From: Alphaproteobacteria bacterium
GTDB taxonomy: Bacteria > Pseudomonadota > Alphaproteobacteria > Rhizobiales > Rhizobiaceae
Assembly (NCBI GenBank): GCA_024742485.1
Contig: JANSYK010000003.1
Coordinates: 248,001-312,000 of the forward strand
Reading direction: 5' to 3'
Length of the DNA: 64,000 bases
Under the pieces are notes generated by a model. It made no database searches and had not been told where the DNA came from. It saw only the letters and a list, made by a program, of their open reading frames with translations. Both the position numbers and the translations under genes were made by a program. This document shows, piece after piece, positions 6,253 through 50,737 of the stretch; positions within the stretch are counted from its first letter, which is position 1; each line of letters starts with the position of its first letter.

Positions 6253-6304
6253 TTGTCTGAGCCTTTGCCTGCCCGACACATTCGGCGGCTGCCGGTCGGG
6301 CGGG

Positions 6305-6337: not shown

Positions 6338-6357
6338 GTCCATCGTGCGAAGCGGCG

Positions 6358-8835: not shown

Positions 8836-8935
8836 TGATTTCAGATTCCCGAACAAGGGGTTTAATTGGGGGTACAGCGAGTGTTTTGGTTGGTATAAGC
8901 GGCCATCGCGTTCATGGTAAGGGATCCAATCACAG

Positions 8936-10120: not shown

Positions 10121-10122
10121 AC

Positions 10123-11948: not shown

Positions 11949-11963
11949 GGAAGATGCCCGTCT

Positions 11964-14971: not shown

Positions 14972-15103
14972 GATCGTCCTTTCGGGATATTGCAGGATCT
15001 GCCGCATCCACAGGATGCATAGATGATTGGAGGGCGTTGAGCGGCTGGGGCAATCCCAACGGCCGGTCCGGCAGCAGTGCGAAGGCCGCTGCCGGATCGA
15101 TGC

Positions 15104-16102: not shown

Positions 16103-16166
16103 ATTTTCCTCCAATGTTTGGTGTCCAGACCGTGCGCTCGTCGCGATTAAGCGGTCTGGACGCTGA

Positions 16167-29432: not shown

Positions 29433-29436
29433 TGTT

Positions 29437-30257: not shown

Positions 30258-30271
30258 TGTTATCGATAACA
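30258..30271. promoter_or_regulatory. LacI/GntR-type operator TGTTATCGATAACA
   Basis: Perfect 14-bp palindrome in the divergent intergenic region. Confidence 0.8.
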
Positions 30272-32758: not shown

Positions 32759-32772
32759 TGTTATCGGTAACA
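32759..32772. promoter_or_regulatory. LacI/GntR-type operator TGTTATCGGTAACA
   Basis: Near-perfect palindrome in the divergent GlcG / SMP-30 intergenic region. Confidence 0.75.
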
Positions 32773-32797: not shown

Positions 32798-33700
32798 ATG
32801 TCCTTTTTTCGAGCGATTGAACCGGAATTTTCCCGATTTGTGATGGGCAACGCGCCGGTCAAGCAGCTGGCGACGGGCTTCGATTGGACGGAAGGGCCGG
32901 TTTGGTTCGGTGACGCCAATTGCCTGCTGTTTTCCGACATTCCCAATAACCGGATTATGCGCTGGACGCCGGGTGCCGGGATATCCGTGTATCGTGAACC
33001 ATCGAATTTCGCCAATGGCCATACCCGAGACCGCGAGGGGCGCCTGGTCAGTTGCGAGCATGGACTGAGGCGGGTGACCCGCACGGAACTTGATGGCACG
33101 ATCACCGTGCTCGCTGATTCCTTTGATGGCAAGTCCTTGAACTCGCCCAATGATGTCGTGGTCAAATCCGACGGATCGATCTGGTTTACCGATCCGCATT
33201 ACGGCATCATGACCAATTATGAGGGATACAAATCGGAACAGGAACTGCCCTGCCACGTCTATCGGATCAATCCCTCGAACGGCAACATCGAAGCTGTGGC
33301 AACAGATTTTGCGTGTCCGAACGGCCTTGCCTTTTCACCGGACGAATCAAAGCTCTATGTGGCTGACACCGGCGCAATGTTCGATGCCGAAGCCGAGCGC
33401 CACATCAGGGTTTTCGACGTGGATGCCAATGGTGGCCTGACCGGCGGCGATGTCTTTCATGTGATCAATCCGGGTGCATCCGACGGTTTTCGTCTCGACA
33501 CCGAAGGCAATATCTGGTCGTCGGCTGCTGATGGTGTCCACTGCATTAGCCCTGACGGACGTTTGCTTGGCAAAATTCTCGTTCCCGAGCTGGTCTCGAA
33601 TGTTTGTTTTGGCGGTCGGGCCAAGCATCAGCTATTCATTACCGCGACCACCAGTCTCTATTCGGTGGTGCTCAACCGGCAGGGGATCCAAAGACCATGA
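32798..33700 (+). CDS. SMP-30/gluconolactonase family protein
   Basis: GFDWTEGPVWFGDANCLLFSDIPNNRIMRWTP; NSPNDVVVKSDGSIWFTDPHYG; CPNGLAFSPDESKLYVADTG. Confidence 0.92.
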   Translation: MSFFRAIEPEFSRFVMGNAPVKQLATGFDWTEGPVWFGDANCLLFSDIPNNRIMRWTPGAGISVYREPSNFANGHTRDREGRLVSCEHGLRRVTRTELDGTITVLADSFDGKSLNSPNDVVVKSDGSIWFTDPHYGIMTNYEGYKSEQELPCHVYRINPSNGNIEAVATDFACPNGLAFSPDESKLYVADTGAMFDAEAERHIRVFDVDANGGLTGGDVFHVINPGASDGFRLDTEGNIWSSAADGVHCISPDGRLLGKILVPELVSNVCFGGRAKHQLFITATTSLYSVVLNRQGIQRP

Positions 33701-35106
33701 ACAATGACGACCGCGCGGATATTGGCCTGATCGGCCTTGGAACAATGGGCGCCAATCTGGCGCTCAACATTGCCGATAATGGCTATAAGGTCGCGGTTTA
33801 CAACAGGACACTGGAAACCACCCGCAACTTCGTTGCCGATGCCGGCCCCCTGCAAGACAGATTGACCGGCTGTGAAAGCATCGGAGCGCTGATCGCGGCC
33901 ATCAAACCTCCGCGTGCGGTGATTCTGATGGTGCCTGCTGGTCCGGTCGTCGACGACCATATCGAACTGTTGCGGCCGTTGATGGACGAGGATGATCTGA
34001 TCATCGATGCGGGCAACGCCAATTTCAACGAAACCAACCGGCGAGCCGCCGGCAACGCGCGCTTTTTGGGCATCGGTGTTTCCGGCGGAGAAACCGGTGC
34101 ACGCTACGGACCATCCATCATGGGCGGTGGCCCAAGGGAGCTGTGGGATTCCGTATCACCGATATTGAAGGCGATCGCGGCTGATTACGAGGGCCAGCCC
34201 TGCGCAACCTGGATGGGCGAGGGCGGCGCCGGACACGCTGTCAAAACGGTGCATAACGGCATCGAATATGCAGATATGCAGATGATCGCCGAGGCCTATG
34301 GGATCATGCGCGATGGCATGGCCATGTCGCCAAGCGAGATCGCCAATGTCTTCGATGGCTGGAACAACGGCGTTCTCAAATCCTATCTGATCGAGATTTC
34401 CGCCGAGGTGTCGAAAGCAACGGATCCCAAGACCGGTCGCCCGATGCTTGATGTCATTCTCGACCGCGCAGGCCAAAAGGGAACCGGCCGCTGGACGGCA
34501 ATCGAGGCGCAGCATCTGGGTGTGCCGGTAACGGTGATAGAAGCAGCGGTGGCTGCCCGCAACCTGTCGGCGCGGTTGCAGACACGGCAGCAGGGTGAGG
34601 ACGTGTTCGGTGCGGCGCCAACCAGGCTTGCTGCCGATGCATTGCCCATTTCCATGCTGGAAAACGCACTGATTGCCGGAAAGATCATGTGTTATGCACA
34701 AGGTTTCGAGCTTCTGGAAGGGCTGTCATCAGCCAATGAATGGAACCTGCCGATGCCGGCCATCGCCGAGGTGTGGCGCGCCGGCTGCATCATCCGCTCA
34801 ACCATGCTCAATGACATGGCCAGCGCGCTTGCTGCCAGCCCGGACAGCAATCTGATGTTCTCCGATTTCTTTGCCGCACGTATCCGCGAAACCCAGGCCG
34901 ATCTTCGTCGCACGGTGAGCCTGGCCGCAGAACACGGCCTGCCGACACCGGCGCTGTCATCGGCATTGGCCTATTTCGATATTCTGCGCACCGGCCGCTC
35001 GACGGCCAACATGATCCAGGCGCAACGTGATTTCTTTGGAGCACACAGTTTCGAGCGGATCGATGAACCCGGGGCGCATCACGGGCCATGGGGCGGTGAT
35101 CACTGA
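33700..35106 (+). CDS. gnd: NADP-dependent phosphogluconate dehydrogenase (decarboxylating)
   Basis: IGLIGLGTMGANLALNIADNGYKVAVYNR; GIGVSGGETGARYGPSIMGGG; HAVKTVHNGIEYADMQMIAEAY; QAQRDFFGAHSFERID. Confidence 0.94.
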   Translation, partial: NNDDRADIGLIGLGTMGANLALNIADNGYKVAVYNRTLETTRNFVADAGPLQDRLTGCESIGALIAAIKPPRAVILMVPAGPVVDDHIELLRPLMDEDDLIIDAGNANFNETNRRAAGNARFLGIGVSGGETGARYGPSIMGGGPRELWDSVSPILKAIAADYEGQPCATWMGEGGAGHAVKTVHNGIEYADMQMIAEAYGIMRDGMAMSPSEIANVFDGWNNGVLKSYLIEISAEVSKATDPKTGRPMLDVILDRAGQKGTGRWTAIEAQHLGVPVTVIEAAVAARNLSARLQTRQQGEDVFGAAPTRLAADALPISMLENALIAGKIMCYAQGFELLEGLSSANEWNLPMPAIAEVWRAGCIIRSTMLNDMASALAASPDSNLMFSDFFAARIRETQADLRRTVSLAAEHGLPTPALSSALAYFDILRTGRSTANMIQAQRDFFGAHSFERIDEPGAHHGPWGGDH

Positions 35107-35130: not shown

Positions 35131-36150
35131 CTATACGGTGCTTCCGGGTACCAGTCGCGTCGGAGCGACGATAACGTCCTGAACCGGTTCTCCGCGGATG
35201 CGCGCAATGAGCGCCTCCGCTGCGGTTTTGCCGAGGGCCTGCGTTGCGACGGATGTCGTTGTCAGCCGCTTTGGCAGGACAGAAGCAACCTCCATGCCGC
35301 CCCAACCGGCAATGGATATGTCGTCCGGAACACTCAGCCCCTTCGATTGGCAATAGAAGAGGCCACCGACAGCCATATTGTCCTCCTGATAATAAATCCC
35401 GTCCAGGTCGCCCCTGCGGCTGAGTACGGTCTCGGTTCCGTAATACCCGGCGTAAAATCCGGGACGATCAATCAGTACTTCCCGCGTCGCCAGATGTCCG
35501 CCGCTGGCTTCCAGCGCCTCCATGAAACCATCGAACCGGACCATTCCCATGCCCGGAGTGTTGGCCTCGGCGCCCACAAAGGCGACGTTTCGGCAACCGC
35601 GGCTGACCATGTATCGTCCCATTTCATGACCACAATCGAAGTGATTGAATCCGACGGATATGTCGATCGGGCTGGTGTTGAGGTTCCAGATTTCCACCAC
35701 GGGAATGGCCTGATCCCTCAGCATCTCAAGGACCGTGGGCGTATGTGTCCGGCCGCTCAGGATGACACCGGCAGGCCGCCATGACAGGATGGTGGTCAGC
35801 CAGGCTTCCTCCGTTTCCGGCACTTGCTCGTGGGACCCGATAATCGTCTGATAGCCGAGGCGCGAAAGCGTATGGTCAATGCTGTCGAGTACGGACCCGA
35901 ACATGCCACTCGTCAGCCGCGGAACGCAGACACCAATCAGTGTCGAGGCCTTGTCAGACCCGAAGGCGGCGGCGAGGCGGTTGGGAACGTATCCCAACTC
36001 CTCAACGGCCCGCATAACCCGGTCATGGGTATTTTGGGAAAATCCGCTCGCCTTCCGCAAAACGCGCGATGCCGTCATCTTCGACACGCCGGCGAGTTCC
36101 GCCACCTGTGCGAGCGTGACATTGTCTTTTTTCTTTTTTGAATCAGACAT
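35131..36150 (-). CDS. LacI family transcriptional regulator, GntR/IdnR (gluconate)-like
   Basis: VTLAQVAELAGVSKMTASRVLRKASGFSQNTHDRVMRAVEELGYVPN HTH; located inside a gluconate-type gene set. Confidence 0.92.
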   Translation of the reverse strand: MSDSKKKKDNVTLAQVAELAGVSKMTASRVLRKASGFSQNTHDRVMRAVEELGYVPNRLAAAFGSDKASTLIGVCVPRLTSGMFGSVLDSIDHTLSRLGYQTIIGSHEQVPETEEAWLTTILSWRPAGVILSGRTHTPTVLEMLRDQAIPVVEIWNLNTSPIDISVGFNHFDCGHEMGRYMVSRGCRNVAFVGAEANTPGMGMVRFDGFMEALEASGGHLATREVLIDRPGFYAGYYGTETVLSRRGDLDGIYYQEDNMAVGGLFYCQSKGLSVPDDISIAGWGGMEVASVLPKRLTTTSVATQALGKTAAEALIARIRGEPVQDVIVAPTRLVPGSTV

Positions 36151-36184: not shown

Positions 36185-36198
36185 CGTTACCGATAACA
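36185..36198. promoter_or_regulatory. LacI/GntR-type operator CGTTACCGATAACA
   Basis: Match to the palindrome family; 35 bp upstream of the LacI start. Confidence 0.72.
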
Positions 36199-36302: not shown

Positions 36303-37838
36303 ATGACGCCGCAAATTCAAAGCGGATTGTTTTTTGATGGGATCGTCAAGAGTTTTGGTGGCACGCAGGCTCTGCGCGGTGTCTCCATGCATGTCAATCG
36401 CGGTGAAATTGTCGCCCTGCTCGGCGAGAACGGCGCCGGAAAATCCACCCTCATCAAAGTGCTTGGCGGCATACACACGCCGGATTCGGGCGATGTTCTG
36501 ATTGACGGGGTGCCCTACCAGCACAAACCCGGAACCGTGAATGAACGGCAGTCGGTGGCCTTCATTCACCAGGATCTGGGACTGATCGAGTGGATGACCG
36601 TGGCCGAAAACATGGCGCTGGCACAGGGTTACAAGCGCCGTGCAGGATTGATTGACTGGAGTGATGCGGAGCGACGGGCACGCGAGGCGCTCGCCCGTGT
36701 CGATTGTGATTTCGATCCAACGGTCAGAGTGTCCGATCTCAGCCGGACGGAAAAATCGCTGGTCGCCATCGCCCGGGCGCTGGCTGTTGAATGCGACTTC
36801 CTTGTTCTCGATGAGCCGACCGCCAGCCTGCCGGCGGACGAGGTGGAGCGGCTGTTTGCCGCGTTGCGCCCGTTGCGCGAGAACGGTGTCGGCATGATTT
36901 ACGTTTCTCACCGGCTGGATGAGATCTTCAGGATTGCCGACCGGGTGGCTGTGCTGCGTGATGGCATGATGGTCGGCATCCGCGATGTCGCCCATACCAG
37001 CGCCGAGGAACTTGTTCAGCTCATTGTCGGGCGGCGAGCCCGCGAATTTGACAGGCCGGCCGCCGAGAAGGGCGCAGCGGTTCTCAAACTCTCCAATGTG
37101 GCGATCGGCGATGTCGGCCCGGTGGACCTGGCCGTCAATCAGGGTGAAATCGTCGGTCTGCTTGGCCTGCGTGGGGCAGGGCATGAGGATGTTGGCCGCT
37201 GTCTCTTCGGCGAGCGTGACTTTACCGGTGAAATTCACCTCAATGGCGTTTCACCGGATTTGTCGTCACCGCGCATGGCGATGCAATCGGGCATCGGGCT
37301 GGTGGCGCGCGACCGGGTCGTCGAATCGATCGCGCCGTCTCTGACGATCCGCGAAAACATGTACATAAACCCGCTGGCTTCCGGCCGTGGTCTTTTGTCC
37401 TTCAAGGGGACGTCCAGCGAGGACCGTCAGGTGGAAGCGGTCGGTCAAAGCCTTGGATTGTCACCCAATGATCCGACGCTGGCCATCGAAGCACTGTCCG
37501 GCGGCAATCAGCAAAAGGTTGTGGTCGGCCGCTGGCTCGAGACGGGGCGGCAGCTTCTGATCGCAGAAGATCCGACCGCCGGCGTCGATGTCGGCGCAAA
37601 GGCGGAAATCTATGCACTGCTCTTTGAAGCACTTGCCTCAGGGATGGGTGTGCTTGTCGTCTCAACCGATTTCGAGGAAGTCGCCGCCATCTGCCATCGC
37701 GCCATTGTCTTCAGCCGGGGACAGGTGGTCACCGAATTATCGGGCGTCGGCCTTTCGACCGAATCTCTCATTCAAGCCGCGTCCGCCAGCGATACCGGAC
37801 GGGACACGACACAACAGGTGAACAATGCAGTCCATTGA
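36303..37838 (+). CDS. Sugar ABC transporter ATP-binding protein, tandem NBD (RbsA/MglA-like)
   Basis: Walker A GENGAGKSTLIKVLGG; second NBD with GLRGAGHED and ALSGGNQQKVVVGRWL. Confidence 0.92.
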   Translation: MTPQIQSGLFFDGIVKSFGGTQALRGVSMHVNRGEIVALLGENGAGKSTLIKVLGGIHTPDSGDVLIDGVPYQHKPGTVNERQSVAFIHQDLGLIEWMTVAENMALAQGYKRRAGLIDWSDAERRAREALARVDCDFDPTVRVSDLSRTEKSLVAIARALAVECDFLVLDEPTASLPADEVERLFAALRPLRENGVGMIYVSHRLDEIFRIADRVAVLRDGMMVGIRDVAHTSAEELVQLIVGRRAREFDRPAAEKGAAVLKLSNVAIGDVGPVDLAVNQGEIVGLLGLRGAGHEDVGRCLFGERDFTGEIHLNGVSPDLSSPRMAMQSGIGLVARDRVVESIAPSLTIRENMYINPLASGRGLLSFKGTSSEDRQVEAVGQSLGLSPNDPTLAIEALSGGNQQKVVVGRWLETGRQLLIAEDPTAGVDVGAKAEIYALLFEALASGMGVLVVSTDFEEVAAICHRAIVFSRGQVVTELSGVGLSTESLIQAASASDTGRDTTQQVNNAVH

Positions 37839-38847
37839 ATCAGATGCGCTGGAGCCGACAAAATCAGAGATGAGGGGCCTGTCCTTGGGCGCGAGGCTGA
37901 TCCGTCTGGCACCCGTCTATGGGCTGGTCATTTTGACCGTCGGCCTCGCATTGCTGTTTTCCATTCTCCTGCCCAACACGTTTCCGACGCTCCTCAATCT
38001 GCGCGCCATCATCTCCGACAAGGCAATCATCGCCCTGTTGAGCCTGGCGGCGATGATCCCGATGGCGGCAGGTCGCATCGATCTGACCGTCGGGTACGGC
38101 ATCGTGCTGTGGCACATTTTGGCGATTTCCTTGCAGACCATTTTCGGCATCCCCTGGCCGATCGCTGTCATGATCGTCCTGCTGCTGGGGGCGTTTGTTG
38201 GCCTCTTGAACGGTCTCCTGGTGGAAGTCGCGAAAATCGACGCCTTTATTGCAACGCTCGGCACCGGAACCGTTCTCTACGCGCTGGCGCTGTGGCACAC
38301 CGGGGGACGGCAGATTGTCGGCGTTCTGCCGGACGGGTTCTACGCCATCAACGGCACGTTTGTTTTCGGGCTGCCAATCACCGGGTTTTACGTCCTGGCG
38401 ATCACCATTGTCATGTGGTTGGTGCTGGAGTACACGCCAGTGGGCCGATACCTCTATGCCATCGGCGCCAATCCACGTGCCGCCGAACTGAACGGCATCC
38501 CTACCAGAAAATTTGTCATGGGCGCTTTCGTGACGTCCGGACTGATGACGGCACTCGCCGGCGTCATCCTCGCATCGAAGCTGCGGATCGGGCAGGCCAG
38601 CGTCGGTCTTGAATATCTGCTGCCCGCGCTGGTTGGCGCATTTTTGGGATCGACCACGATCAAGCCGGGACGGGTCAATGTTTGGGGCACAATTGTCGGT
38701 GTCGCAATTCTTGCCATCGGGATTTCAGGAATCCAGCAGATCGGCGGCTCCTTCTGGGTCGAGCCGATGTTCAATGGCGTCACCTTGCTTGTCGCCATCG
38801 GGATTGCCGGATACGCGCAGCGCCGCAAGGGCGCTGCCAGAAAATGA
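37825..38847 (+). CDS. Sugar ABC transporter permease
   Basis: Polytopic; AGRIDLTVGYGIVLWHI, YAIGANPRAAELNGIPTRKFVMGAFVTSGLM. Confidence 0.9.
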   Translation: MQSIESDALEPTKSEMRGLSLGARLIRLAPVYGLVILTVGLALLFSILLPNTFPTLLNLRAIISDKAIIALLSLAAMIPMAAGRIDLTVGYGIVLWHILAISLQTIFGIPWPIAVMIVLLLGAFVGLLNGLLVEVAKIDAFIATLGTGTVLYALALWHTGGRQIVGVLPDGFYAINGTFVFGLPITGFYVLAITIVMWLVLEYTPVGRYLYAIGANPRAAELNGIPTRKFVMGAFVTSGLMTALAGVILASKLRIGQASVGLEYLLPALVGAFLGSTTIKPGRVNVWGTIVGVAILAIGISGIQQIGGSFWVEPMFNGVTLLVAIGIAGYAQRRKGAARK

Positions 38848-38872: not shown

Positions 38873-39970
38873 ATGTTGAGACGAACACTTATCGCCGGAT
38901 TGGCCGGTATCATGACGCTGGGCATCGTATTGCCCGCCCAGGCCGACGCCATATCCGATGCCATGGCGGCCGTGCAGAAACATGCCGGCAAGAAAGAAAC
39001 CTGGAACGGTCCGACCAGCGGTCCCAAGGCGGCCGATGGCAAGACCATTGTCGTTCTTGCCGCTGACATGAAAAACGGCGGCGTGCTGGGTGTGACCAAG
39101 GGCATTGAAGAGGCCGCGTCGAAAATCGGTTGGGATGTCCGAGTACTGGACGGTGCCGGGTCCGTTTCCGGCCGCACCGCGGCATTCGGCCAGGCCATGG
39201 CCCTTCAGCCCGATGGCATCATCATCAACGGGTTCGACGCTGTCGAGCAGCAAACCGGCATGGCGCAGGCCCGTGAATCCAGCATCCCGATGGTCAGCTG
39301 GCATGCCTCGCCGGTGATCGGTCCGGATCCGGACAATGGGGTCTTCGCCAATGTCTCGACGGATGCGATGGATGTCTCGGCAGCTGCGGCCCAGTGGGCC
39401 TTCGCCGATGCCGGCGGCAAGCCGGGTGTGGTCATCTTTACCGATTCCACCTACGCCATCGCGATTGCCAAGGCCGACCGTATCAAGGAAACCATCGAAG
39501 CGCTTGGCGGCACAGTGCTTGAATATGTCGACACGCCAATCGCCGACACGTCCAACCGGATGCCGACATTGACGACAGCTCTCTTGCAGCGCCACGGTGA
39601 CAAGTGGACTCATAGCCTGGCGATCAACGACATCTATTTCGACTTCATGGGACCCGCTCTGGCGGCAGCCGGCATCTCCGGTGATGGTCAGCCAAAGGCT
39701 GTCGCGGCTGGTGATGGTTCCGAAAGCGCCTATCAGCGCATTCGCGGCAAGCAATACCAGTCAGTGACCGTAGCCGAACCGCTCAATCTGCAGGGCTGGC
39801 AGTTGGTCGACGAACTGAACCGCGCCATGCAGGGCGAGGAATGGTCCGGCTACACCTCTCCGCTTCATGTCGTGACACTGGACAACATCGCCTTCGACGG
39901 TGGTGACAACAACATCTTCGACCCGGGCAATGGCTACCGGGACGAATACGCCAAGATCTGGGGCAAGTGA
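38873..39970 (+). CDS. Sugar ABC transporter substrate-binding protein
   Basis: Signal peptide MLRRTLIAGLAGIMTLGIVLPAQADA; type I PBP fold (GIIINGFDAVEQQTGMAQARESSIPMVSWHA). Confidence 0.87.
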   Translation: MLRRTLIAGLAGIMTLGIVLPAQADAISDAMAAVQKHAGKKETWNGPTSGPKAADGKTIVVLAADMKNGGVLGVTKGIEEAASKIGWDVRVLDGAGSVSGRTAAFGQAMALQPDGIIINGFDAVEQQTGMAQARESSIPMVSWHASPVIGPDPDNGVFANVSTDAMDVSAAAAQWAFADAGGKPGVVIFTDSTYAIAIAKADRIKETIEALGGTVLEYVDTPIADTSNRMPTLTTALLQRHGDKWTHSLAINDIYFDFMGPALAAAGISGDGQPKAVAAGDGSESAYQRIRGKQYQSVTVAEPLNLQGWQLVDELNRAMQGEEWSGYTSPLHVVTLDNIAFDGGDNNIFDPGNGYRDEYAKIWGK

Positions 39971-40199: not shown

Positions 40200-40213
40200 T
40201 GTTATCGATAACA
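40200..40213. promoter_or_regulatory. LacI/GntR-type operator TGTTATCGATAACA
   Basis: Identical to the 30258-30271 site; 20 bp upstream of the second ABC operon. Confidence 0.8.
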
Positions 40214-40232: not shown

Positions 40233-40994
40233 ATGAACGACGGTCAGCCGATCATCACGATGAGCGACATATCCAAACGGTTTGGCGGTGTCACCGCGCT
40301 CGATGGTGTTGACCTTGCCGCCCATGCCGGTGAGGTGCTGGCCATTGTCGGTGACAACGGCGCCGGCAAGTCGACTTTGATCAAGATTCTCACAGGCGTT
40401 TACCAGCCGACCGAGGGCACCATTAATCTCGATGGCCGTCCGTTACAGATGAACAGCCATTCCGATGCGATCGAGGTTGGCATTGGCGCCGTCTATCAGA
40501 CCCTTGCCCTCGCGGACCACCTTGATCCCGCCGCCAATCTTTTCCTTGGTTCCGAACTGACCAAATCTGTTTTGGGTTTTTCGTTTCTGGACAACAGGAA
40601 AATGCGGTCCGAGGCGGAAAGAGTGCTCAAGGATCGTCTTGGTGTGACGCTCAAAAGCATGGATGTCATGACACAGAGCCTGTCCGGCGGGCAGCGTCAG
40701 GCGGTGGCGATCGCACGCGCCGTGCGGCACACCGGTTTGCGGGTTCTCGTCATGGATGAGCCGACCGCGGCCCTTGGACCGCAGGAAACGGCCAGGACGC
40801 TCAAGCTGATCACCACGTTGAAGGAACACGGCCTTGCGGTGATCGTCATTTCGCACTCGCTCGACGACGTCTTTCAAATCTCGGACCGGATTCACGTGAT
40901 GCGCCGCGGCCGATGTGTCGGTGTCGAAAAGACAGAAACGACAAACCGTGAAGCGATCCTCGGACTGATCGTCGGAGCCCACCAGGCCGCGTGA
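40233..40994 (+). CDS. Sugar ABC transporter ATP-binding protein (single NBD, FrcA-like)
   Basis: GDNGAGKSTLIKILTG; LSGGQRQAVAIARAV; VLVMDEPTAALG. Confidence 0.91.
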   Translation: MNDGQPIITMSDISKRFGGVTALDGVDLAAHAGEVLAIVGDNGAGKSTLIKILTGVYQPTEGTINLDGRPLQMNSHSDAIEVGIGAVYQTLALADHLDPAANLFLGSELTKSVLGFSFLDNRKMRSEAERVLKDRLGVTLKSMDVMTQSLSGGQRQAVAIARAVRHTGLRVLVMDEPTAALGPQETARTLKLITTLKEHGLAVIVISHSLDDVFQISDRIHVMRRGRCVGVEKTETTNREAILGLIVGAHQAA

Positions 40995-41022: not shown

Positions 41023-42159
41023 ATGTCTGTTTCGGTCGACAATGCGCGAAATTCTATGGGCAAGACATTCAATGATCGCCTGGAACCCTACCTGGCGATT
41101 CTCGGACCGATGGCGATGATCCTGCTGATTGCCGGTTTCATGGCCATTGTGGAGCCAGCGCGCTATTTCCGCCTTTCCAACCTCAATGCCATTCTTCTGG
41201 AAAGTGCGCTCTACATGCCCATGGCCATGGCGATGACATTTGTCATCACCCAGCGGGGCATCGATCTGTCCATTGGCTCGGTGGCGGCGCTCACGGGCAT
41301 CATCATGGCCTTCCTGATCAAGCAATACGGCTTTCCGGCCTGGCTTGCCGTCATCATTGGCATCACGCTTGGCGCAACCATGGGGTTGATAAACGGGCTG
41401 GTCATCACCCGGTTTCGGGTGCCTGATCTGATCGGAACACTGGCCATGGATCTGGTCTATCGGGGCTTTGCTCTCGTGCTCGCCAAGGGGCTCGTGCTTG
41501 CCCGGTTTCCGGAGCTGATCACGGAAATCGGCAGGGGGCAGATCTTCTACATCCTGCCAACCCCGGTGGTCATCGGCCTGCTGTCGATGATCGGTGGATA
41601 TTTCATCCTGACCCGCACCTATTTCGGCCGATACACAATCGCCATCGGGTCCAACCCGGAAGCCTCCGAAATGAGCGGCGTTTCGGTCGACCGGCACCGC
41701 ATTCATGCCTATGTGCTGATGGGTGCCATGGCCGGACTGGCCGGGATCATGCTGACCGGAAAACTGAATGCGGTTCAGGCAACGTCGGCACCTTACTTCA
41801 ACCTGCACGTGATCGCGGCAGTGGTTGTCGGCGGCACCTCCCTGTTCGGCGGTCGCGCGTCCATGCTGGGCTCATTTGCCGGTGTCTTGCTCTTGTCGAT
41901 GATGATCAACGCGCTGGTGACCCTGCGGATCGAATTTTTCTGGCAGTCGGTCGCTTCCGGCGTGGTCATTATCGCGTCCGTTGCCGTTTACACATGGCTT
42001 CAAAAGGAAGACCGCGACGGCGCCAGCGGAATTGGCGCTGCCTTTGCCAATCCCGACAACGTCAAGATCATGAAACTGTCCGGCGCGTTGCTGGGCGGTC
42101 TCATATTCCTGCTCGTCATCGGTCGGCTGCTTGCCGGTGACCCCAATCCCAGCGGCTGA
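41023..42159 (+). CDS. Sugar ABC transporter permease
   Basis: Polytopic; TQRGIDLSIGSVAALTGIIMAF, YTIAIGSNPEASEMSGVSVDRHRIHAYVLMGAMAGLAG. Confidence 0.91.
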   Translation: MSVSVDNARNSMGKTFNDRLEPYLAILGPMAMILLIAGFMAIVEPARYFRLSNLNAILLESALYMPMAMAMTFVITQRGIDLSIGSVAALTGIIMAFLIKQYGFPAWLAVIIGITLGATMGLINGLVITRFRVPDLIGTLAMDLVYRGFALVLAKGLVLARFPELITEIGRGQIFYILPTPVVIGLLSMIGGYFILTRTYFGRYTIAIGSNPEASEMSGVSVDRHRIHAYVLMGAMAGLAGIMLTGKLNAVQATSAPYFNLHVIAAVVVGGTSLFGGRASMLGSFAGVLLLSMMINALVTLRIEFFWQSVASGVVIIASVAVYTWLQKEDRDGASGIGAAFANPDNVKIMKLSGALLGGLIFLLVIGRLLAGDPNPSG

Positions 42160-42217: not shown

Positions 42218-43354
42218 ATGAAAATGATATCAGGACTGGTACTGGCGACGGCATTGTCGCTTTCGGCATCGGCTCTCGCACAGGATCTGCCGCTCAAGAC
42301 ACTGCCGGACGATGGTGATCGGGACTATTGGCTGCCACAGCAGGTCAACAAGGATGGCGCGCTTGAGGCGCTGCAGGCCAAGACGGGCGAAAAGGCCGTG
42401 AAATTTGACGGCACCCAGGACAAGCCGATCCAGATTGCGTTGATCTATCCGTCTGCGGATGTTTCCGATTTCTGGGCACGCAATTACCTGGCGCTGACGA
42501 AACGGCTGGACGAACTGGGCATACAGTATGAAACACGTGAATTCGCGTCGCGCCAGATCGAGCATTCGCTCCAGGCAACCTATGCAAATCAGGTCGCACA
42601 GGATCAGGACCTCTATGATTTCGTGATTTTCGGCCCATCCGAACTTGCCACCCAGGCCGACAATATCGACAAGCTGGCAGGAACCGACGGCTTGACGACA
42701 TTTGTCTGGGCTTTTCACACGCCTCTCAAATACCTGAAGAACCAGCCGGCCGCCTGGTTCGACTTCTCATCGGCCTATGGCGCACTGAAGATGTGTGATT
42801 ACATGCTGGAACGGCTCGGCAAGGATGTTACCTACGCCATGAACCGGGGCATTCCGGGCATCACCGACAATCAGCGTTCCGGCGATTTCAAGGATTGTGT
42901 CGCGGAGAAGGGTAATTGGGACGCCGTATACGAGCACTACGGCGAGTATCAGCGGGAAGGCGGGTTCACCGGAACAAGCCTGATCCTCCAGGCCTATCCG
43001 GAAGCCAAGGTCATCCACAATGCCAACACGGCCATGGCCATGGGCTCGGTTGAGGCTCAGGTTGCCACGGGCAAGGAAAAGGAAATCTTCTCGACCGGCT
43101 GGGGTGGCACCGGGCTGGAACTCGATGCCATCCGCCGGGGCGAACTCGATGCCACACCGATGCGCATGGGGGACGACGTCGGCGCGGCGACGGCCGAAGC
43201 CATCAAGGCTCATCTGGAAGACAAGGCCGACGAACTTCCGCTCGTGTTTCTCGGTCGCATCACGGTTGCCCATGATCAGATGAGCAAAGAGGAGATCGAC
43301 AATCTTGAAAAGGAAGCCTTCCGTTTTTCAGGCGTCGGCGCCCTGAAACGCTGA
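42218..43354 (+). CDS. LuxP-like periplasmic substrate-binding protein of a sugar ABC transporter
   Basis: Signal peptide; PIQIALIYPSADVSDFWARNYLALTKRLDELGI; GWGGTGLELDAIRRGELDATPMRMGDDVGAATAEAIKAHLED; resembles Vibrio LuxP as I recall its sequence. Confidence 0.75.
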   Translation: MKMISGLVLATALSLSASALAQDLPLKTLPDDGDRDYWLPQQVNKDGALEALQAKTGEKAVKFDGTQDKPIQIALIYPSADVSDFWARNYLALTKRLDELGIQYETREFASRQIEHSLQATYANQVAQDQDLYDFVIFGPSELATQADNIDKLAGTDGLTTFVWAFHTPLKYLKNQPAAWFDFSSAYGALKMCDYMLERLGKDVTYAMNRGIPGITDNQRSGDFKDCVAEKGNWDAVYEHYGEYQREGGFTGTSLILQAYPEAKVIHNANTAMAMGSVEAQVATGKEKEIFSTGWGGTGLELDAIRRGELDATPMRMGDDVGAATAEAIKAHLEDKADELPLVFLGRITVAHDQMSKEEIDNLEKEAFRFSGVGALKR

Positions 43355-43424: not shown

Positions 43425-44612
43425 CTAAAGCCGTACGACTTTCAGCTTCGTTTTGAGGTCGGTGCGACAGAAGGCGTGAAGAAAACAGGTCTGCTCACTG
43501 ATATCGAGCATTTCCTGGGCAACCTGATCCGATTCCGAAGTCTCGAGATAGACATGCGTTTCGATCGGATCGGCCTCGCCAACCTTGCCGGTGCCGCCGG
43601 ATGCGCCACCCAGACTGAAATGCGTGTCCTGCACGATCCGATAGTCGTTCAGGTCGAGTTTCAGCATCGATACGAACCGACCGAATTGTGTCATGAAGCA
43701 GAACCCGATGCCGGCACTGATCAGCGAGTTGGCATCCGGGGCCCGTCCGTCCTCCGCGCTGAGAAACCGGAATGACGTCCCATAGGGTGAATATTGCATC
43801 TGCTGGATGTCCTTGATCCCGTCTTCGCGCAAAACCGCGACGGCGCCAATATTCAATCGACGATCCTGTTCATCGGAAAGCGACGAGCCGCCGGATGACG
43901 TCCCCTTGACGACGTCCTTCTTTGGCGTCGGGCCGACCGGCTCCATCAACGTTAGCGCGCCATCGACCGAAGCCGGCCGGGCCTTGGCAAAATGATCGCC
44001 CGGGTCCGGAATGATGGTGCCTTCCAGTTCCGCCACCTTGGCCGTTGGAAGCGGGTAACCGTTGCTGGCCAATTTGAACAGGCTCTCCAATTGTCCCCTC
44101 ATCAACCCGTTGAGCGGAGAGGCGAAGGTTGCATTGATCAGGAACTCGTTCAGCTCCTTGTCTTCAAGATCGCAGTCGATCTCGACCTGCAGCTCGATGT
44201 TTTCGGCGCCGCCAACCATGGTTCGCTTCGGCATCGACCCCTTCATCGTGTAGTAATTGTCCTGAATGAGCTTGAGTTTGCGGATGTCGACACCCTGAAG
44301 CTTTGCCAGGGCGAGTATTTCATTCATGAAGCTCGCCGCCATGCCAACCGACAGAAAGGCCAGTGGGCAGGGGGCTGCATCATGTCCATTCAGGTATGGC
44401 CCTTCGTCGGATACCAGTCTCCAGGTGTCGCCGGTGCGCGCTGACCGCACCAGTGCTTCTTTCTGGAAACCGCTCAGGGACCGGACCCAGGTTCGCAAGG
44501 CGTCGCCCTTGCGATTTTCCGGCGCGTCGATCGGGACATCACCCGGTTCAGACAGCTTGAAAAAGGGCGGAAGGCCGCTCGCGCCGATGATGTTTTCGCC
44601 AAGCTTAGCCAT
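43425..44612 (-). CDS. OsmC family protein with two OsmC-like domains in tandem
   Basis: First half GPYLNGHDAAPCPLAFLSVGMAASFMNEI, second half DGRAPDANSLISAGIGFCFMTQFGRFVSML...EQTCFLHAF; both resemble the OsmC core. Confidence 0.75.
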   Translation of the reverse strand: MAKLGENIIGASGLPPFFKLSEPGDVPIDAPENRKGDALRTWVRSLSGFQKEALVRSARTGDTWRLVSDEGPYLNGHDAAPCPLAFLSVGMAASFMNEILALAKLQGVDIRKLKLIQDNYYTMKGSMPKRTMVGGAENIELQVEIDCDLEDKELNEFLINATFASPLNGLMRGQLESLFKLASNGYPLPTAKVAELEGTIIPDPGDHFAKARPASVDGALTLMEPVGPTPKKDVVKGTSSGGSSLSDEQDRRLNIGAVAVLREDGIKDIQQMQYSPYGTSFRFLSAEDGRAPDANSLISAGIGFCFMTQFGRFVSMLKLDLNDYRIVQDTHFSLGGASGGTGKVGEADPIETHVYLETSESDQVAQEMLDISEQTCFLHAFCRTDLKTKLKVVRL

Positions 44613-46119
44613 GATTGTCTCCTACCAGGAAGCCGGCTGGCCCCGAAATCGAGTGGGGCTCGGCAAACGCCAACACTCCGTCATAGCCAAGGTTGCGTCC
44701 GATACCCGACATTTTGAAGCCGCCAAAGGGTCCCCGGCCGTCCTGCGCCATGGGGCCGTGGCCGTTGAGATAGGTGTAGCCGGCCTCGATCCGCCTGGCG
44801 ATCCGAACCGCCCGTTCCGCATCGGGTGTCCAGACCGATGAGCACAGACCGAATTCGCTGTCATTGGCGAGTGAAATGGCCTCTTCGTCGGTCTTGAACT
44901 TCATGATCGGCAGGCATGGTCCGAATTGTTCCTCGCGCACGATCGTCAGGTCGGGATCTGCATCATAGACGAGGGCGGGTTTCTGGAAATATCCGCCACC
45001 ATTGTAGAGGTCTTCATCCGGCACCTGACCGCATTCCCTGACCTCGGCGCCCTTGGCGCGAGCCTCGGCAATCATGTCGGTGACGACTTTGAGCTGTTTG
45101 GCATTGTTGACCGGTCCCATGGTCGTCTCCGGGATCAAGCCATCGCCAACAACAGCGCGTTCACACGCGGCAGTAAAACCGTCGACAACCTCGTCATAGC
45201 GGCTCTCATGTACATACATGCGCTTCAGCGCCATGCAGATCTGTCCCGACGAGCCGAAGGCGCCCCAATACATCCTGTTGAAGACTTCGTCGTCGAGTTC
45301 GACATCGTCCAGAAACAGGGCAGCGTCATTGCCGCCGAGTTCCAGCGTGACCGGGGTGATGTTTTCGGCTGCAACTTTCATCACGTGACGACCGACCGGC
45401 ACCGATCCGGTAAAATTGACCTTGCGGACCAACGGGTGCCCCGTCAGCGTATCGCCGATCTCCTTTGACGAACCGGTTATGATATTGACCACTCCGGGCG
45501 GCAGCATTTCGGCGATGATCTGCAGCGTCAGCACCGGCGCCATGGCCGAATTCTCGGCGGGCTTCACAACAACCGTATTGCCGGTCACCAGGGCCTGCGG
45601 GAGTTTGGCGCCGAGAATGGAGAGGGGCCAGTTCCAGGGAACGATGAGCGCCGTCACGCCGCGCGGCTGCCGTGTGATAATCGTGTCAAATTGGGGGCCG
45701 GCGTCCGGCGGCCCCATGTCCTCATCAATGGCCATCCGCTCGCCATAGCCCGCCGCCTGCATGAAACGGTCGCCCAGTCGGCTCATTTCCAGCAGTGTTT
45801 CGCGGGCGATCTTGCCATGTTCGCGCGTGAAGAGGCGGGAACGGTATTTGACATCCTCCTCATCGGCCACCAGCGACTTGGCGATGTCACGCAGCATGTT
45901 GGCGCGCGTCTGGAAACCAAGCTCCGCCCAGGCCGGAAAGGCGGCATGGGCGGCTTCGACAGCCGCGTTCATGTCCTCTTTCGACGCCGCCGCCGCATGC
46001 CCCACCAACTCGTCCGGGCGTGCAGGATTGAAAAGATCATAGGTGGCACTCTCCCTGGCCGGTCGAATTTCGCCATTGATCAGAATATCTGTCGTTATGA
46101 CCTGGTCCATATTGCTCAT
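44605..46119 (-). CDS. Aldehyde dehydrogenase family protein
   Basis: LIVPWNWPLSILGAKLPQALVTGNTVVVKPAE; FTGSVPVGRHVMK; LELGGNDAALFLDDVELD; GQICMALKRMYV (catalytic Cys). Confidence 0.94.
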   Translation of the reverse strand: MSNMDQVITTDILINGEIRPARESATYDLFNPARPDELVGHAAAASKEDMNAAVEAAHAAFPAWAELGFQTRANMLRDIAKSLVADEEDVKYRSRLFTREHGKIARETLLEMSRLGDRFMQAAGYGERMAIDEDMGPPDAGPQFDTIITRQPRGVTALIVPWNWPLSILGAKLPQALVTGNTVVVKPAENSAMAPVLTLQIIAEMLPPGVVNIITGSSKEIGDTLTGHPLVRKVNFTGSVPVGRHVMKVAAENITPVTLELGGNDAALFLDDVELDDEVFNRMYWGAFGSSGQICMALKRMYVHESRYDEVVDGFTAACERAVVGDGLIPETTMGPVNNAKQLKVVTDMIAEARAKGAEVRECGQVPDEDLYNGGGYFQKPALVYDADPDLTIVREEQFGPCLPIMKFKTDEEAISLANDSEFGLCSSVWTPDAERAVRIARRIEAGYTYLNGHGPMAQDGRGPFGGFKMSGIGRNLGYDGVLAFAEPHSISGPAGFLVGDNHG

Positions 46120-46139
46120 TGTGACACCTCCCACATCGG

Positions 46140-46946
46140 TCAAAATTTTCCTTGATTGTTCCATGCTTCGGGGCACGGAATTTTTTCCGTCACATCCCAG
46201 TGTTCGCAGATCATGCCATTTTGCAGGCGGTAGATATCGAAGCAACAATAATGGTTTTGATCCATCTGTTGATGGCTCAGCGTGACCACGAAATTGCCCT
46301 GTCCGATCAACCGATGCACCTTCCAATAGCGCATCCTTGTCGCCGGGCGTGACAAATCGGCGTGATGGGCGCGAAAGGGGTCTATTCCATAATTATCATG
46401 AGATGGATTGTGATGTTCAAATGCCCTGGCTGACAAATAGGTCTCCGCGCGATCGAAATTCCGTCCCAAAAGGACATCATCCCAGAAGGCGCGAACAATG
46501 GTCTTGTTTTCCTCGGTCTTCTCCAGGTCAGTGATATCGGCCGGGCCATCGATCATGGACCGACCCGATATCGGGTCTGTTTCGAAGGCCTGTATCACAT
46601 CCCAGTGCTCGATTACCCGGTCGGCCTCATCGGTGTCAAAGAGGTCGCCCGTGACCCATTGGCTCTCGCCATTGTTGAGGCTTTGATAGACATGCAGGAA
46701 CACGAACGGACCGTCCTCGATTGCCCGTACGACCTGAATGTCGCGGATCGGGTTGCGCGCGAGAAACGGTTCGAAGAAATCGGCAAATCCCTGCTGTCCA
46801 TCCCCAACACCGGTGGAGTGTTGTGTGTAGCGGGCGCCGGTATGGGCATTCAGTGCCTCCCACACTCTTCCTTCGCCGATACCCTCCAGATAGAGGCCGG
46901 AGGCGTGACGTAGTTTTTCGGTTCCGGTCAGGGATGTGATCGTCAT
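46140..46946 (-). CDS. SnoaL/NTF2-like protein with two repeated domains
   Basis: Two similar halves, each ending in EHWDV(I/T) (...TDEADRVIEHWDVIQAF... and ...LQNGMICEHWDVTEKIP). Confidence 0.72.
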   Translation of the reverse strand: MTITSLTGTEKLRHASGLYLEGIGEGRVWEALNAHTGARYTQHSTGVGDGQQGFADFFEPFLARNPIRDIQVVRAIEDGPFVFLHVYQSLNNGESQWVTGDLFDTDEADRVIEHWDVIQAFETDPISGRSMIDGPADITDLEKTEENKTIVRAFWDDVLLGRNFDRAETYLSARAFEHHNPSHDNYGIDPFRAHHADLSRPATRMRYWKVHRLIGQGNFVVTLSHQQMDQNHYCCFDIYRLQNGMICEHWDVTEKIPCPEAWNNQGKF

Positions 46947-46956
46947 TTCTGCGGCC

Positions 46957-47739
46957 TCATACCTGATGCATATTGGAGAGAATGTGGCTCGACATGCCGC
47001 CATCGAGGGTCAGATTGGCCCCGCGAAACCATTTGGCGCCCTTGCTGAGGGCAAAGGCGACAACCGGTGCGACATCCTGTGGGGTCCCGGGGCGATCCAT
47101 CACCTTGCTGTCTTCCGCCGCGCGCTCTCCCAACGTTGCCAGGAAGTCGCCCAAAATGGGCGTATCGACCGGGCCGGGACTGACACAATTCATGGTGATT
47201 CCCCGGTCGCGCCAGGTCCAGCGGTTCTGCATCGTCCAGACGACGAGAGCCTCCTTGGACAGAAAATAGGAACGCCCGCCTTCGGCATTCTGTAACTGCT
47301 GTTCTTTACAGAAGGCTTCCACGTCGCTGTCCAGGTCGAGTGCCAGCGCTGCCCGGACCTGTTCCAGTGCATTGGGCCATCCGAATCCCGCAAGGGACGC
47401 CAGATTGGCAATGGACGCACCATCAGCGAGTTTGGGTATCACGCCCAGCGTCAGCCTCTGCAATCCATAGAGGTTGACCTTCATGACGGTGCTGGCAGGA
47501 GCCGTCGGCGGAACGCCCGCGATATTGGCTAATCCGTTCACACTTTCCGGCAGAGCAGCCAGAAGCGCGTTGATCGAATCCGGATCAGCAAGATCAGCCT
47601 GCAGGAAAGTATCCGCATTGTCCGTCTCATGGCGGTCGACACCGATCACCCGAGCACCTTGAGATCGAAGCGCGTGGCTTGTTTCGGCGCCGATCCCGGA
47701 AGCAACCCCGGTGACAATATAGGTTTTTCCTTCATGCAT
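46957..47739 (-). CDS. SDR family, coniferyl-alcohol dehydrogenase-like
   Basis: YIVTGVASGIGAETSHALRSQGARVIGVDRHE; YFLSKEALVVWTMQNRWTWRDRGITMNCVSPGPVDTPIL; resembles CalA-type enzymes. Confidence 0.75.
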   Translation of the reverse strand: MHEGKTYIVTGVASGIGAETSHALRSQGARVIGVDRHETDNADTFLQADLADPDSINALLAALPESVNGLANIAGVPPTAPASTVMKVNLYGLQRLTLGVIPKLADGASIANLASLAGFGWPNALEQVRAALALDLDSDVEAFCKEQQLQNAEGGRSYFLSKEALVVWTMQNRWTWRDRGITMNCVSPGPVDTPILGDFLATLGERAAEDSKVMDRPGTPQDVAPVVAFALSKGAKWFRGANLTLDGGMSSHILSNMHQV

Positions 47740-47757
47740 GTGTCGATCCTCCCAGGA

Positions 47758-49143
47758 TTATCCCACCATCGTTTGCGGCAGGAAGGTTGCGATTTGCGGA
47801 AACAGGGCCAGCAGCACCAGCATGAGCGCCATGGCAAACCAGAATGGCCAGATCCCACGGAAGATTTGGCCCATGGGCACACCCGGTGCGATGGATTTCA
47901 CCACGAAGACATTGAGACCGACGGGCGGTGAGATCATCCCCATCTCAAGCACGACCACGACGAGGATTCCGAACCAGATCATTTTCATGTCGGCCAACGA
48001 CGGGTCGAACCCGAAATCGAGGGCGGCAATAATCGGCAGCACAACCGGAATCGTCAGCACCAGCATGGCGATGCCCTCCAGGAACATGCCGAGAAACATG
48101 TAGATGAGAATGATGATCAGGAGGATGCCGTAATCTCCGATCGACAACGAAGTCAGCAAGGAGACCAACTGCCCGGGCAGTTCGGTCAGCGACATGAAGG
48201 GGATGAAAATGAAGGCTCCGATAATGATCAAAAACACGGTGGCCGAAGCCTTGAGCGTTTGAAGGATCACTTCGCGAATGGCCACGCCATCTAGAGACCG
48301 GCGATAGAGGGCAACGAGCAACGTCAAAAAGGCGCCGACCGACGAGGCCTCGACCGGCGTGAAGAAACCGGTATACATGCCACCAATGGTGATGCCGACC
48401 ACGGCCACGAAGGGCAGGGCCGCGACGAGGGCATCGCGCCGCTCCGGCCAACTGGCGCGTTCGGCCGGAGGACCGGCTTCCGGACGGCGCAGCACCGTCA
48501 GATAGATCGCGCCGATGAACAGAAGTGTCAGCACGATGCCCGGGATCACGCCGGCCATGAAGAGCCGTCCGATGCTCTGTTCGGTCAGCACGGCGTAGAT
48601 GATCATTCCGCCGGACGGTGGAATCAGGAAGCCGAGTGTTCCACCTGCCGCTACCGATCCGGTCGCCAGGCTGTCCGAATAGTGATATTTTTTCATTTCG
48701 GGCAATGCCACGCGCCCCATGGTGATGGCTGCTGCCAGAGATGAACCGGACAGGGCAGCGAACCCAGCACAGGCGGCTATGGTTGCCGAGGCGAGGCCAC
48801 CTTTCATGTGGCCCATCCAGCGGTAGGCGGCATTGAACAGGTCAGCCGACATGCCGGAAACACCGGCGAGATTGCCCATCAGAACAAACATCGGGATGAC
48901 CAGCAGATTATAGTTTGAGGCCGCCTCGAACGCTTCACCCGACAGGTTGGACAATGCGGTCTTGAGGCCGCGCGAGAACGCCTGATCCGATGCCATGCCC
49001 AGCAGCAAAAACCGATTGGCGGTCGCAATGATCGTGCCAACGACCCCGACGAGGATCATCGCCAGAGCCACTGGAAACCGCAGTGCCAGCAACCCAAAGA
49101 GCGCCAGAAGTCCGAGCACGCCGAGGAGCGTCATGCTGATCAT
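47758..49143 (-). CDS. dctM: TRAP transporter large permease (DctM)
   Basis: Polytopic; LVIPMFVLMGNLAGVSGMSADLFNAAYRWMGHMKGGLASATIAACAGFAALSGSSLAAAITMG. Confidence 0.93.
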   Translation of the reverse strand: MISMTLLGVLGLLALFGLLALRFPVALAMILVGVVGTIIATANRFLLLGMASDQAFSRGLKTALSNLSGEAFEAASNYNLLVIPMFVLMGNLAGVSGMSADLFNAAYRWMGHMKGGLASATIAACAGFAALSGSSLAAAITMGRVALPEMKKYHYSDSLATGSVAAGGTLGFLIPPSGGMIIYAVLTEQSIGRLFMAGVIPGIVLTLLFIGAIYLTVLRRPEAGPPAERASWPERRDALVAALPFVAVVGITIGGMYTGFFTPVEASSVGAFLTLLVALYRRSLDGVAIREVILQTLKASATVFLIIIGAFIFIPFMSLTELPGQLVSLLTSLSIGDYGILLIIILIYMFLGMFLEGIAMLVLTIPVVLPIIAALDFGFDPSLADMKMIWFGILVVVVLEMGMISPPVGLNVFVVKSIAPGVPMGQIFRGIWPFWFAMALMLVLLALFPQIATFLPQTMVG

Positions 49144-49682
49144 CGCTCCGCCCCGAGCCGGATCAGCATGATTTTACCCTTGGTGGCCAGCTGCACTGCA
49201 TCGGAGATCAGGACCAGCACATAGAGGCCAACACACCCGGCCAGCAGAAAATAGAACGGTTCGTAGGAGATCAGCAATTGCTGGGTGGTCTCGCCGAATT
49301 TCGTTGCCTTTCGACCAGCCTCGATCAGCTCCCAGGCCATCAGCAGCATCAGTCCGCCCGCCAGCAGACGCAACACGAACATGGACCAGCGCGCAAAGGC
49401 CGGGCTCATGCGCGATTCCAGGATCTCGATCTCGATGTGAGCACCGGTCCGGCCTCCAAACGGGATAGCGATCGCGACGAGAATGACGAGCGACAGGATC
49501 ATCAAGTCTTCGGCACCAAGGATTGGCGCATTCAGCGCCTTGCGCATGATCAAAACGTTGATACTGCCGAACAGCATCATGAAGGCCAGCATTGTTCCGC
49601 CGACAAGAAGGGCGGCCCAGGTCAGGATCCGGTCCAATGGTTTGAGCCATGCGGGTTCGGACATGGTCGCCTCCTCAACCAA
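49140..49682 (-). CDS. dctQ: TRAP transporter small permease (DctQ)
   Basis: 180 aa with four TM segments, overlaps DctM by 4 bp. Confidence 0.85.
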   Translation of the reverse strand: MVEEATMSEPAWLKPLDRILTWAALLVGGTMLAFMMLFGSINVLIMRKALNAPILGAEDLMILSLVILVAIAIPFGGRTGAHIEIEILESRMSPAFARWSMFVLRLLAGGLMLLMAWELIEAGRKATKFGETTQQLLISYEPFYFLLAGCVGLYVLVLISDAVQLATKGKIMLIRLGAER

Positions 49683-49714
49683 TAGGGGCGGCCCACTGGA
49701 CCGCCCCGTTCGAT

Positions 49715-50737
49715 TTACTGATTGATGGCCTCGTAGACCTCGCGCGCGTTGGAAATCCCGCGGGCCTCGTAGTCTTTGAATATCACGTTCAGCCCCTCGG
49801 CAACGGCGGCATCCATCTTGGCGCGCTCTTCGTTGCTGACCTTGATCTGCTCGACCTTGGCCATCTGAGGGGCGCTTTGCATGATCTCGAAGGACTTTGC
49901 ATCGGCACCATCAAAACTTGCGGCGCCCTGCAGGGAGAATATTTCGCCGGACAGTTCATCGATAATCGCGCGATGTTCGTCCGACAGCTCCATGTACCGT
50001 TCCTTGTTCATGGCGACGAAAAACACCGCGAACTGGACCGGAACATTGGTGACCAGATGGCTGGAAACATCCCAGAAGTTCCAGGGGGCAGTGATGTTGT
50101 TGTAGGTTGCTGTTGTGGAATCGATCGTTCCTGTTGACAGCCCCGTATACATTTCCGTGACCGGCATCTGAACCGGGACAGCACCGAGCGCCTCGACAAT
50201 CGGTGTTGTCATTGCGGCATAGGGCACCATTTTCTTGCCCTCAAGCGCGGCCATGCTGGAGACATCGCTTGTTGCGGCCCAGATGTTTCCGGCTGTTGTG
50301 AAGATGCCCAGCAATTTCACGTCATTGTACTCATCGGCGAGGTGGTCCTCATAGACCGCGAGCAGGCGTTCCGTTGCCTCTTTCGCCGTGGTCGACTTGC
50401 CGGGAGGGATGATCAGCATGGATTTCGGAAAAATGGTCGGGGTGTAGGCCTGCAGGCCGAACGTGATATCGGCAACGCCCTCGACGACACGCTTGTACTG
50501 TTGCACCGGACCGGCACCGAGCTGACCCGCCGGGTAGACCTTGAGTGTCAGCGACCCGTCGGAGCGTTTGGCCAGTTCATCTCCAAACCACTTGAACAGG
50601 ACAGCATTTGTGTGGTGTTGCGGCGGCACGAAATTGGCCACCGAGAGCTCTTCAGCACCGGCATGACCGGCAAAAAAGGCGGAAATTGCAAGGGCGGCGG
50701 CTCCCAGGCGGGACGCCAGATTGAATGATGGTCTCAT
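49715..50737 (-). CDS. dctP: TRAP transporter substrate-binding protein (DctP)
   Basis: Signal peptide; LSVANFVPPQHHTNAVLFKWFGDELAKRSDGSLTLKVYPAGQLGAGPVQQYKRVVEGVADITFGLQAYTPTIFP. Confidence 0.92.
   Translation of the reverse strand: MRPSFNLASRLGAAALAISAFFAGHAGAEELSVANFVPPQHHTNAVLFKWFGDELAKRSDGSLTLKVYPAGQLGAGPVQQYKRVVEGVADITFGLQAYTPTIFPKSMLIIPPGKSTTAKEATERLLAVYEDHLADEYNDVKLLGIFTTAGNIWAATSDVSSMAALEGKKMVPYAAMTTPIVEALGAVPVQMPVTEMYTGLSTGTIDSTTATYNNITAPWNFWDVSSHLVTNVPVQFAVFFVAMNKERYMELSDEHRAIIDELSGEIFSLQGAASFDGADAKSFEIMQSAPQMAKVEQIKVSNEERAKMDAAVAEGLNVIFKDYEARGISNAREVYEAINQ

Follow-up and report, generated by a model that had tools for sequence, protein, structure and literature searches.

A LuxP-related binding protein in a gluconate-type regulon belongs to a fixed ABC trio and probably serves sugar-acid import

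What does a LuxP-like periplasmic protein bind when it is encoded behind an ABC ATPase and a permease? LuxP was found only in Vibrio in earlier work (PMC524169, PMC7584622), and a 2025 survey gathered 267 proteins annotated as LuxP, three of which, picked at random, were shown to bind AI-2; such name-based surveys class LuxP-annotated proteins as AI-2 receptors (PMC12268683). The question is raised here by SBP2, the third gene of a compact trio in the window, that is, the whole 64,000-nucleotide stretch of alphaproteobacterial DNA analysed:

40233-40994, + strand: ATP2, single-domain ABC ATPase of 253 aa, with Walker A (GDNGAGKS), LSGGQ and Walker B (DEP) intact
41023-42159, + strand: PERM2, sugar-type permease of 378 aa, BPD_transp_2 by Pfam
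42218-43354, + strand: SBP2, LuxP-superfamily periplasmic binding protein of 378 aa, with a signal peptide

An AGGA ribosome-binding site and the signal peptide were found at the SBP2 reading frame, whose bounds are exactly those listed. When the sequence was compared with the PDB, all the best matches were LuxP entries (E 2.3e-38 to 2.5e-38, residues 40-371), and the next family was the ribose-binding protein RbsB at E 1.2e-9. An AlphaFold2 model built from 44 homologues (pLDDT 89.5, pTM 0.86) was then searched with Foldseek, and the predicted fold matched LuxP chains at ranks 1-8 (E 2.4e-32 to 2.5e-29) and RbsB at rank 9 (E 3.6e-19), with a best TM-score, normalised to query length, of 0.82 between the model and apo LuxP. 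In two trees the LuxP superfamily including SBP2 was split from RbsB/AlsB with support of 99/98 and 100/100. The SBP2 clade itself, supported at 97/99 and 97/98, was distinct from the proteins encoded beside LuxQ-type kinases and fell outside the LuxP/LuxQ-linked clade as a sister clade within the superfamily. The SBP2 clade is a sister clade of LuxP and not LuxP itself.

Across 84 SBP2-bearing loci, ATP2 stood beside the binding protein gene in 79 and PERM2 in 82, some of the absences being due to contig ends; ATP2-PERM2-SBP2 is a fixed trio. The trio of Ruegeria pomeroyi DSS-3 is SPO_RS21110-21100. Intact ATPase motifs, a BPD_transp_2 permease and a binding protein with a signal peptide make up an importer of CUT2 type, hereafter ABC2. 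No luxQ gene with a LuxQ-periplasm domain was found next to SBP2, which has ABC genes upstream and OsmC-domain and ALDH genes downstream. The first-pass annotation had proposed that SBP2 resembles LuxP, and that the preceding ATPase and permease place it with an ABC importer and not with LuxQ. The sequence, fold and tree placement bore out the former (the best matches were LuxP proteins and not generic RbsB/YtfQ binders, and SBP2 has its place in the LuxP superfamily), while the genes of the window and the trio of the 84 loci agreed with the latter. The downstream genes, on the - strand at 43425-50737, encode a double OsmC-domain protein, an ALDH, a SnoaL-domain protein, an SDR and a TRAP transporter; the OsmC, ALDH, SnoaL and SDR genes were not conserved beside the trio elsewhere. 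A second importer, ABC1, lies upstream of ABC2:

36303-37838, + strand: ATP1, the sugar ABC ATPase of ABC1, double-domain, with either 36276 or 36303 as its start
37825-38847, + strand: PERM1, permease of ABC1
38888-39970, + strand: SBP1, Peripla_BP_4 binding protein of ABC1, whose Vibrio homologue is paired with SBP2 there

ABC1 was present in 58-59 of the 84 loci. The two importers stood in tandem in most loci, and ABC2 occurred without a nearby ABC1 in about 20. A further ABC set was seen at 13221-16114 of the window, consisting of a single-domain ATPase (43% to ATP2), a permease and a probable binding protein.

The binding pocket was examined next to that of LuxP, in which AI-2 is hydrogen-bonded by Gln77, Ser79, Trp82, Asn159, Arg215, Thr266 and Arg310 (PMC9687752). 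The comparison covered six Vibrio LuxP sequences and 38 proteins of the SBP2 clade, 34 of them ABC-linked and 4 from Vibrio. SBP2 keeps the equivalents of LuxP Ser79, Trp82, Arg215, Thr266, Trp289 and Arg310, so that 5 of the 7 hydrogen-bonding residues are retained and two are changed, Gln77 to Asp and Asn159 to Ala. Among the 38 clade members, Ser79, Arg215, Thr266 and Arg310 were invariant and Trp82 and Trp289 nearly so. The Gln77 site was Asp in 38/38, the Asn159 site was Ala in 37/38 and Ala or Gly in all 38, and Thr161 to His and Asp136 to Ser were found in every member, while Gln77 and Asn159 were invariant in the six Vibrio LuxP sequences. The pocket signature Asp77/Ala159/His161 versus Gln77/Asn159 separates the SBP2 clade from LuxP. 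The first-pass annotation had named Ser79, Trp82, Arg215, Trp289 and Arg310 as kept and Gln77 as Asp, all of which the alignment reproduced; the change of Asn159 to Ala had been overlooked. Its further step, from the pocket arginines to a furanose-borate ligand, was not supported. Arg215 is also present in RbsB, AlsB and YtfQ and is thus not diagnostic, and Arg310 cannot be used as evidence for borate because it was kept in every ABC-linked superfamily branch examined. Moreover, the Gln77 and Asn159 contacts are replaced throughout the clade, and the regulon favours sugar acids. Arg310 and Trp289 are instead marks of the LuxP superfamily, RbsB having Gln and Phe at these sites (the Arg310 site is Gln in both RbsB and AlsB, Gln235 of mature RbsB).

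These data bear on two readings of the ligand. That SBP2 is a true receptor or importer of AI-2, the furanosyl borate diester, as LuxP is, would fit the six retained residues and LuxP being the closest solved fold, but the reading seems very improbable in view of the four pocket changes common to all 38 clade members and of the gluconate-type regulon. A Vibrio genome (G066) has an SBP2-clade protein and, in addition, a genuine LuxP beside an 860-aa LuxQ-like gene, and a separate subfamily that keeps Asn159 occupies lsr-like operons. AI-2 import was also considered for the SBP2 host itself and set aside, its genome having no luxS and its LsrF homologue lying in a DhaK/DhaL-like cluster outside any lsr operon. 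AI-2 uptake by the SBP2 importer is unlikely because luxS and an lsr operon are missing and two AI-2 contacts are lost clade-wide. The other reading is that the importer takes up a boron-complexed ligand, in which borate is esterified with a polyol or sugar acid. Borate is plentiful in the sea, gluconate-type polyols complex it, marine genera are frequent among the named hosts, and SBP2 retains the two arginines with which LuxP holds borate. However, with Arg215 common to RbsB/AlsB/YtfQ and Arg310 to all ABC-linked branches, neither is boron-specific, and SBP2 carries an extra acidic residue at the Gln77-equivalent site, which leaves a borate ester highly doubtful. Apiose was considered because it forms borate esters; no supporting genes were seen, and it was left as speculation.

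The regulatory sites of the window were searched with the pattern TGTTA-N4-TAACA, allowing up to one mismatch, and four sites were found against 0.15 expected, together with a regulator gene:

40200-40213, unstranded: GntR-type LacI operator TGTTATCGATAACA, a perfect palindrome, upstream of ATP2
36185-36198, unstranded: operator CGTTACCGATAACA with 1 mismatch, between the LacI gene and ABC1, conserved in same-genus relatives
32759-32772, unstranded: operator TGTTATCGGTAACA, upstream of the SMP-30 lactonase gene
30258-30271, unstranded: operator TGTTATCGATAACA, in the divergent promoter of the SDR/gntK and 2-hydroxyacid dehydrogenase/IdnD genes
35131-36150, - strand: LacI-family regulator, nearest NCBIfam models GntR/IdnR, below their cut-offs

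The operator at 40200-40213 had already been assigned to a gluconate-type LacI regulator, and the four sites join ABC1, ABC2 and the gluconate genes in one GntR/IdnR-type regulon with a common palindromic operator. The catabolic genes are as follows, with the enzyme assignments mostly under the NCBIfam equivalog cut-offs:

33697-35106, + strand: 6-phosphogluconate dehydrogenase gnd, above cut-off
32798-33700, + strand: SMP-30/gluconolactonase
31261-32292, + strand: L-idonate 5-dehydrogenase-like zinc dehydrogenase (E 2e-107, below the curated cut-off)
30304-31251, + strand: 2-hydroxyacid dehydrogenase of GhrB/glyoxylate reductase type
29437-30210, - strand: SDR, gluconate 5-dehydrogenase-like, as suggested by position and motif
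28935-29468, - strand: gluconokinase of GntK/IdnK type, TIGR01313 above cut-off
28051-28938, - strand: dehydrogenase of the 3-hydroxyisobutyrate/tartronate-semialdehyde reductase family

The association extended beyond the window. In the 84 SBP2 loci, neighbouring genes included SMP-30 in 43, HIBADH in 32, gntK in 22, 2HADH in 20, L-idonate dehydrogenase-like IdnD in 11 and gnd in 10. One locus, L177, had ABC2 as the only ABC importer found, within an idonate/gluconate cluster and with no ABC1 in the stretch read. In same genus and family relatives, the trio still had its own operator when it stood alone or inverted. Stand-alone ABC2 loci carried an operator directly upstream in 11/20, compared with 2.3% of random segments, whereas in tandem loci it stood before ABC1 in 19/54 and before ATP2 in 2/54. 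In three Kiloniellaceae-type loci, the trio faces genes for L-threonate dehydrogenase, oxo-tetronate kinase and a decarboxylase. These genes are convergent with the trio and outside its operon; they passed the NCBIfam cut-offs in the locus tested, with an isomerase just below, and the copies in the other two loci were 85-95% identical. Threonate and oxo-tetronate are also sugar acids.

With the superfamily placement, the fixed trio, the shared operator and the clade-wide changed pocket computed, we infer the ligand class and consider it probable, at roughly 0.62, that SBP2-PERM2-ATP2 is a sugar-acid ABC importer derepressed together with the genes that catabolise its ligand. In the periplasm, SBP2 would capture a small sugar acid or a lactone or furanose-type form of one, the likely ligands being compounds like gluconate, idonate and ketogluconate, and pass it for import to the dedicated PERM2 and two copies of ATP2. 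The GntR/IdnR-type LacI repressor would induce the importer along with the lactonase, the dehydrogenases, the gluconokinase and 6-phosphogluconate dehydrogenase, and these enzymes would consume the imported ligand. In the pocket, Arg220 and Arg316 of SBP2, which correspond to LuxP Arg215 and Arg310, probably bind a carboxylate where LuxP holds borate. Against the sugar-acid reading, 9 of the 20 stand-alone ABC2 loci had no operator, and no gluconate genes were found within 10 kb in several of these loci (L019, L021, L046, L061). It could also be ABC1, a member of the same regulon, that imports gluconate, with ABC2 carrying something else.

It is also conceivable, but rather unlikely, that SBP2 is an ordinary importer component for a neutral pentose or furanose, of the RbsB/FrcB kind, that happens to sit in a gluconate regulon. 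The Pfam domain of SBP2 is the generic Peripla_BP_4, and the ATPase and permease of ABC2 resemble the YtfR and AraH/RbsC models, as such an importer would have it; but the RbsB-type matches were far weaker, SBP2 has Arg310 and Trp289 where RbsB has Gln and Phe, and no ribokinase, xylose or arabinose gene adjoining the trio was recognised in the window or in the annotated roseobacter loci. Compared with RbsABC, AlsABC and YtfQRT-YjfF, the system shares the Peripla_BP_4 and BPD_transp_2 families and the Arg215 equivalent, whereas SBP2 has LuxP-type Arg310 and Trp289 and lies outside their clade, and ATP2 is single-domain. The control of the importer has a parallel in the E. coli GntI/GntII (gnt-idn) regulon, with which the window shares a LacI-type GntR/IdnR-like repressor, TGTTA-N4-TAACA operators, a gluconokinase and an idonate dehydrogenase. 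Uptake in E. coli is by the GntT/IdnT permeases, while the regulon of the window has two ABC importers for this step. Searching the literature for uptake of ketogluconate or idonate by ABC importers yielded nothing relevant.

As for the signalling systems, SBP2 shares with LuxP (PDB 1JX6, with LuxQ) its superfamily, its fold, six pocket residues and homology over the full length (about 28-30% identity), but differs in Asp77/Ala159, in having ABC partners instead of LuxQ, in its gluconate-type regulon and in a genome without luxS. LsrACDB, too, belongs to the CUT2-type sugar ABC importers and has a periplasmic binding protein. LsrB, however, is only remotely related to SBP2, the Lsr system uses a double-domain ATPase together with two permeases, and the trio has no lsrK, lsrR or lsrG nearby, no matches to these genes being found in the window.

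Relatives of SBP2 were also found in another setting. In four Vibrio loci, an SBP1 homologue (about 41-42%) is divergent from an SBP2 homologue (54-60%) and is followed by a gene for a GGDEF-EAL protein, with no transporter in the stretch read:

L010, 6209-10987: Vibrio SBP1/SBP2/GGDEF-EAL module
L117, 8428-13210: Vibrio SBP1/SBP2/GGDEF-EAL module
L118, 8256-13024: Vibrio SBP1/SBP2/GGDEF-EAL module
L119, 8930-13694: Vibrio SBP1/SBP2/GGDEF-EAL module

The SBP1/SBP2 pair seems to have an import role in one group and, in another, a role in c-di-GMP signalling. SBP1 and SBP2 may even form one sensory or import unit, for instance two receptors for two forms of one compound with a shared output. The ABC1-ABC2 tandem and the Vibrio neighbours speak for such a unit, but with ABC2 standing without a nearby ABC1 in a number of loci it remains doubtful.

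LuxP-type importers of another kind were identified in four Rhodobacteraceae-type genomes, each encoding a single permease, one single-domain ATPase and a binding protein of LuxP type, clustered with LsrK, LsrR, LsrG, an RbsD-type protein and a class II aldolase and without LsrACDB:

L011 (Roseicitreum antarcticum), 2190-12086: lsr-like operon with LuxP-type importer
L171, 2002-11200: lsr-like operon with LuxP-type importer
L172, 3131-12419: lsr-like operon with LuxP-type importer
L173, 4394-12530: lsr-like operon with LuxP-type importer

In the Roseicitreum locus, LsrK was 55% to E. coli LsrK, the permease 44% to PERM2 versus 31% to LsrC, and the ATPase 39% to ATP2 versus 32% to LsrA. The LuxP-like proteins of these operons keep Asn159, Arg215 and Arg310, which on sequence makes them better candidates for AI-2 import than SBP2. 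The trees did not separate a placement of LuxP with the lsr-type proteins from one outside all ABC-linked proteins (AU p 0.32), nor settle the deeper order of the lsr-type group, LuxP and the SBP2 clade, and the lsr-type plus LuxP grouping was supported at 73/16; several outgroup branches are long, and the root position is to be taken cautiously. We tentatively propose that the LuxP superfamily began as binding proteins with which ABC importers captured sugar derivatives of acidic or furanose type. Vibrio may have taken LuxP from this set for LuxQ and, separately, the SBP1/SBP2 pair for a GGDEF-EAL enzyme. LuxP would then derive from a nutrient importer, the lsr-type branch of Roseicitreum and relatives would import AI-2, and SBP2 would use the former borate arginines to bind sugar acids.

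A large alphaproteobacterial sister clade of LuxP thus looks like a sugar-acid importer, and for this reason similarity to LuxP, or the two arginines alone, is insufficient for AI-2 sensing. This suggests that the LuxP family takes up sugar acids as food besides sensing signals, and the origin of LuxP and the ligand of the marine importer become directly testable. No description of the ABC-linked SBP2 clade was found in the partly covered literature searched, and the locus was absent from the main texts of the R. pomeroyi transporter screens (PMC10130141, PMC9870897, PMC10041152, PMC2953401).

Some further relatives were observed. The LsrF homologue of the SBP2 host (C154:901245-902105; L141:8249-9106) is 70% to E. 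coli LsrF and lies beside DhaK/DhaL-like genes. At L128:8280-11989 and L129:5573-9264, diverged LuxP-like proteins without Arg at 310 are followed by proteins of 860-868 aa; a LuxQ-periplasm domain is the most that Pfam detects in these, and it detects no kinase. Loci L174, L175 and L176 hold more ABC-linked branches of the LuxP superfamily, with other neighbours and other pockets (Asp77, Asn159 kept).
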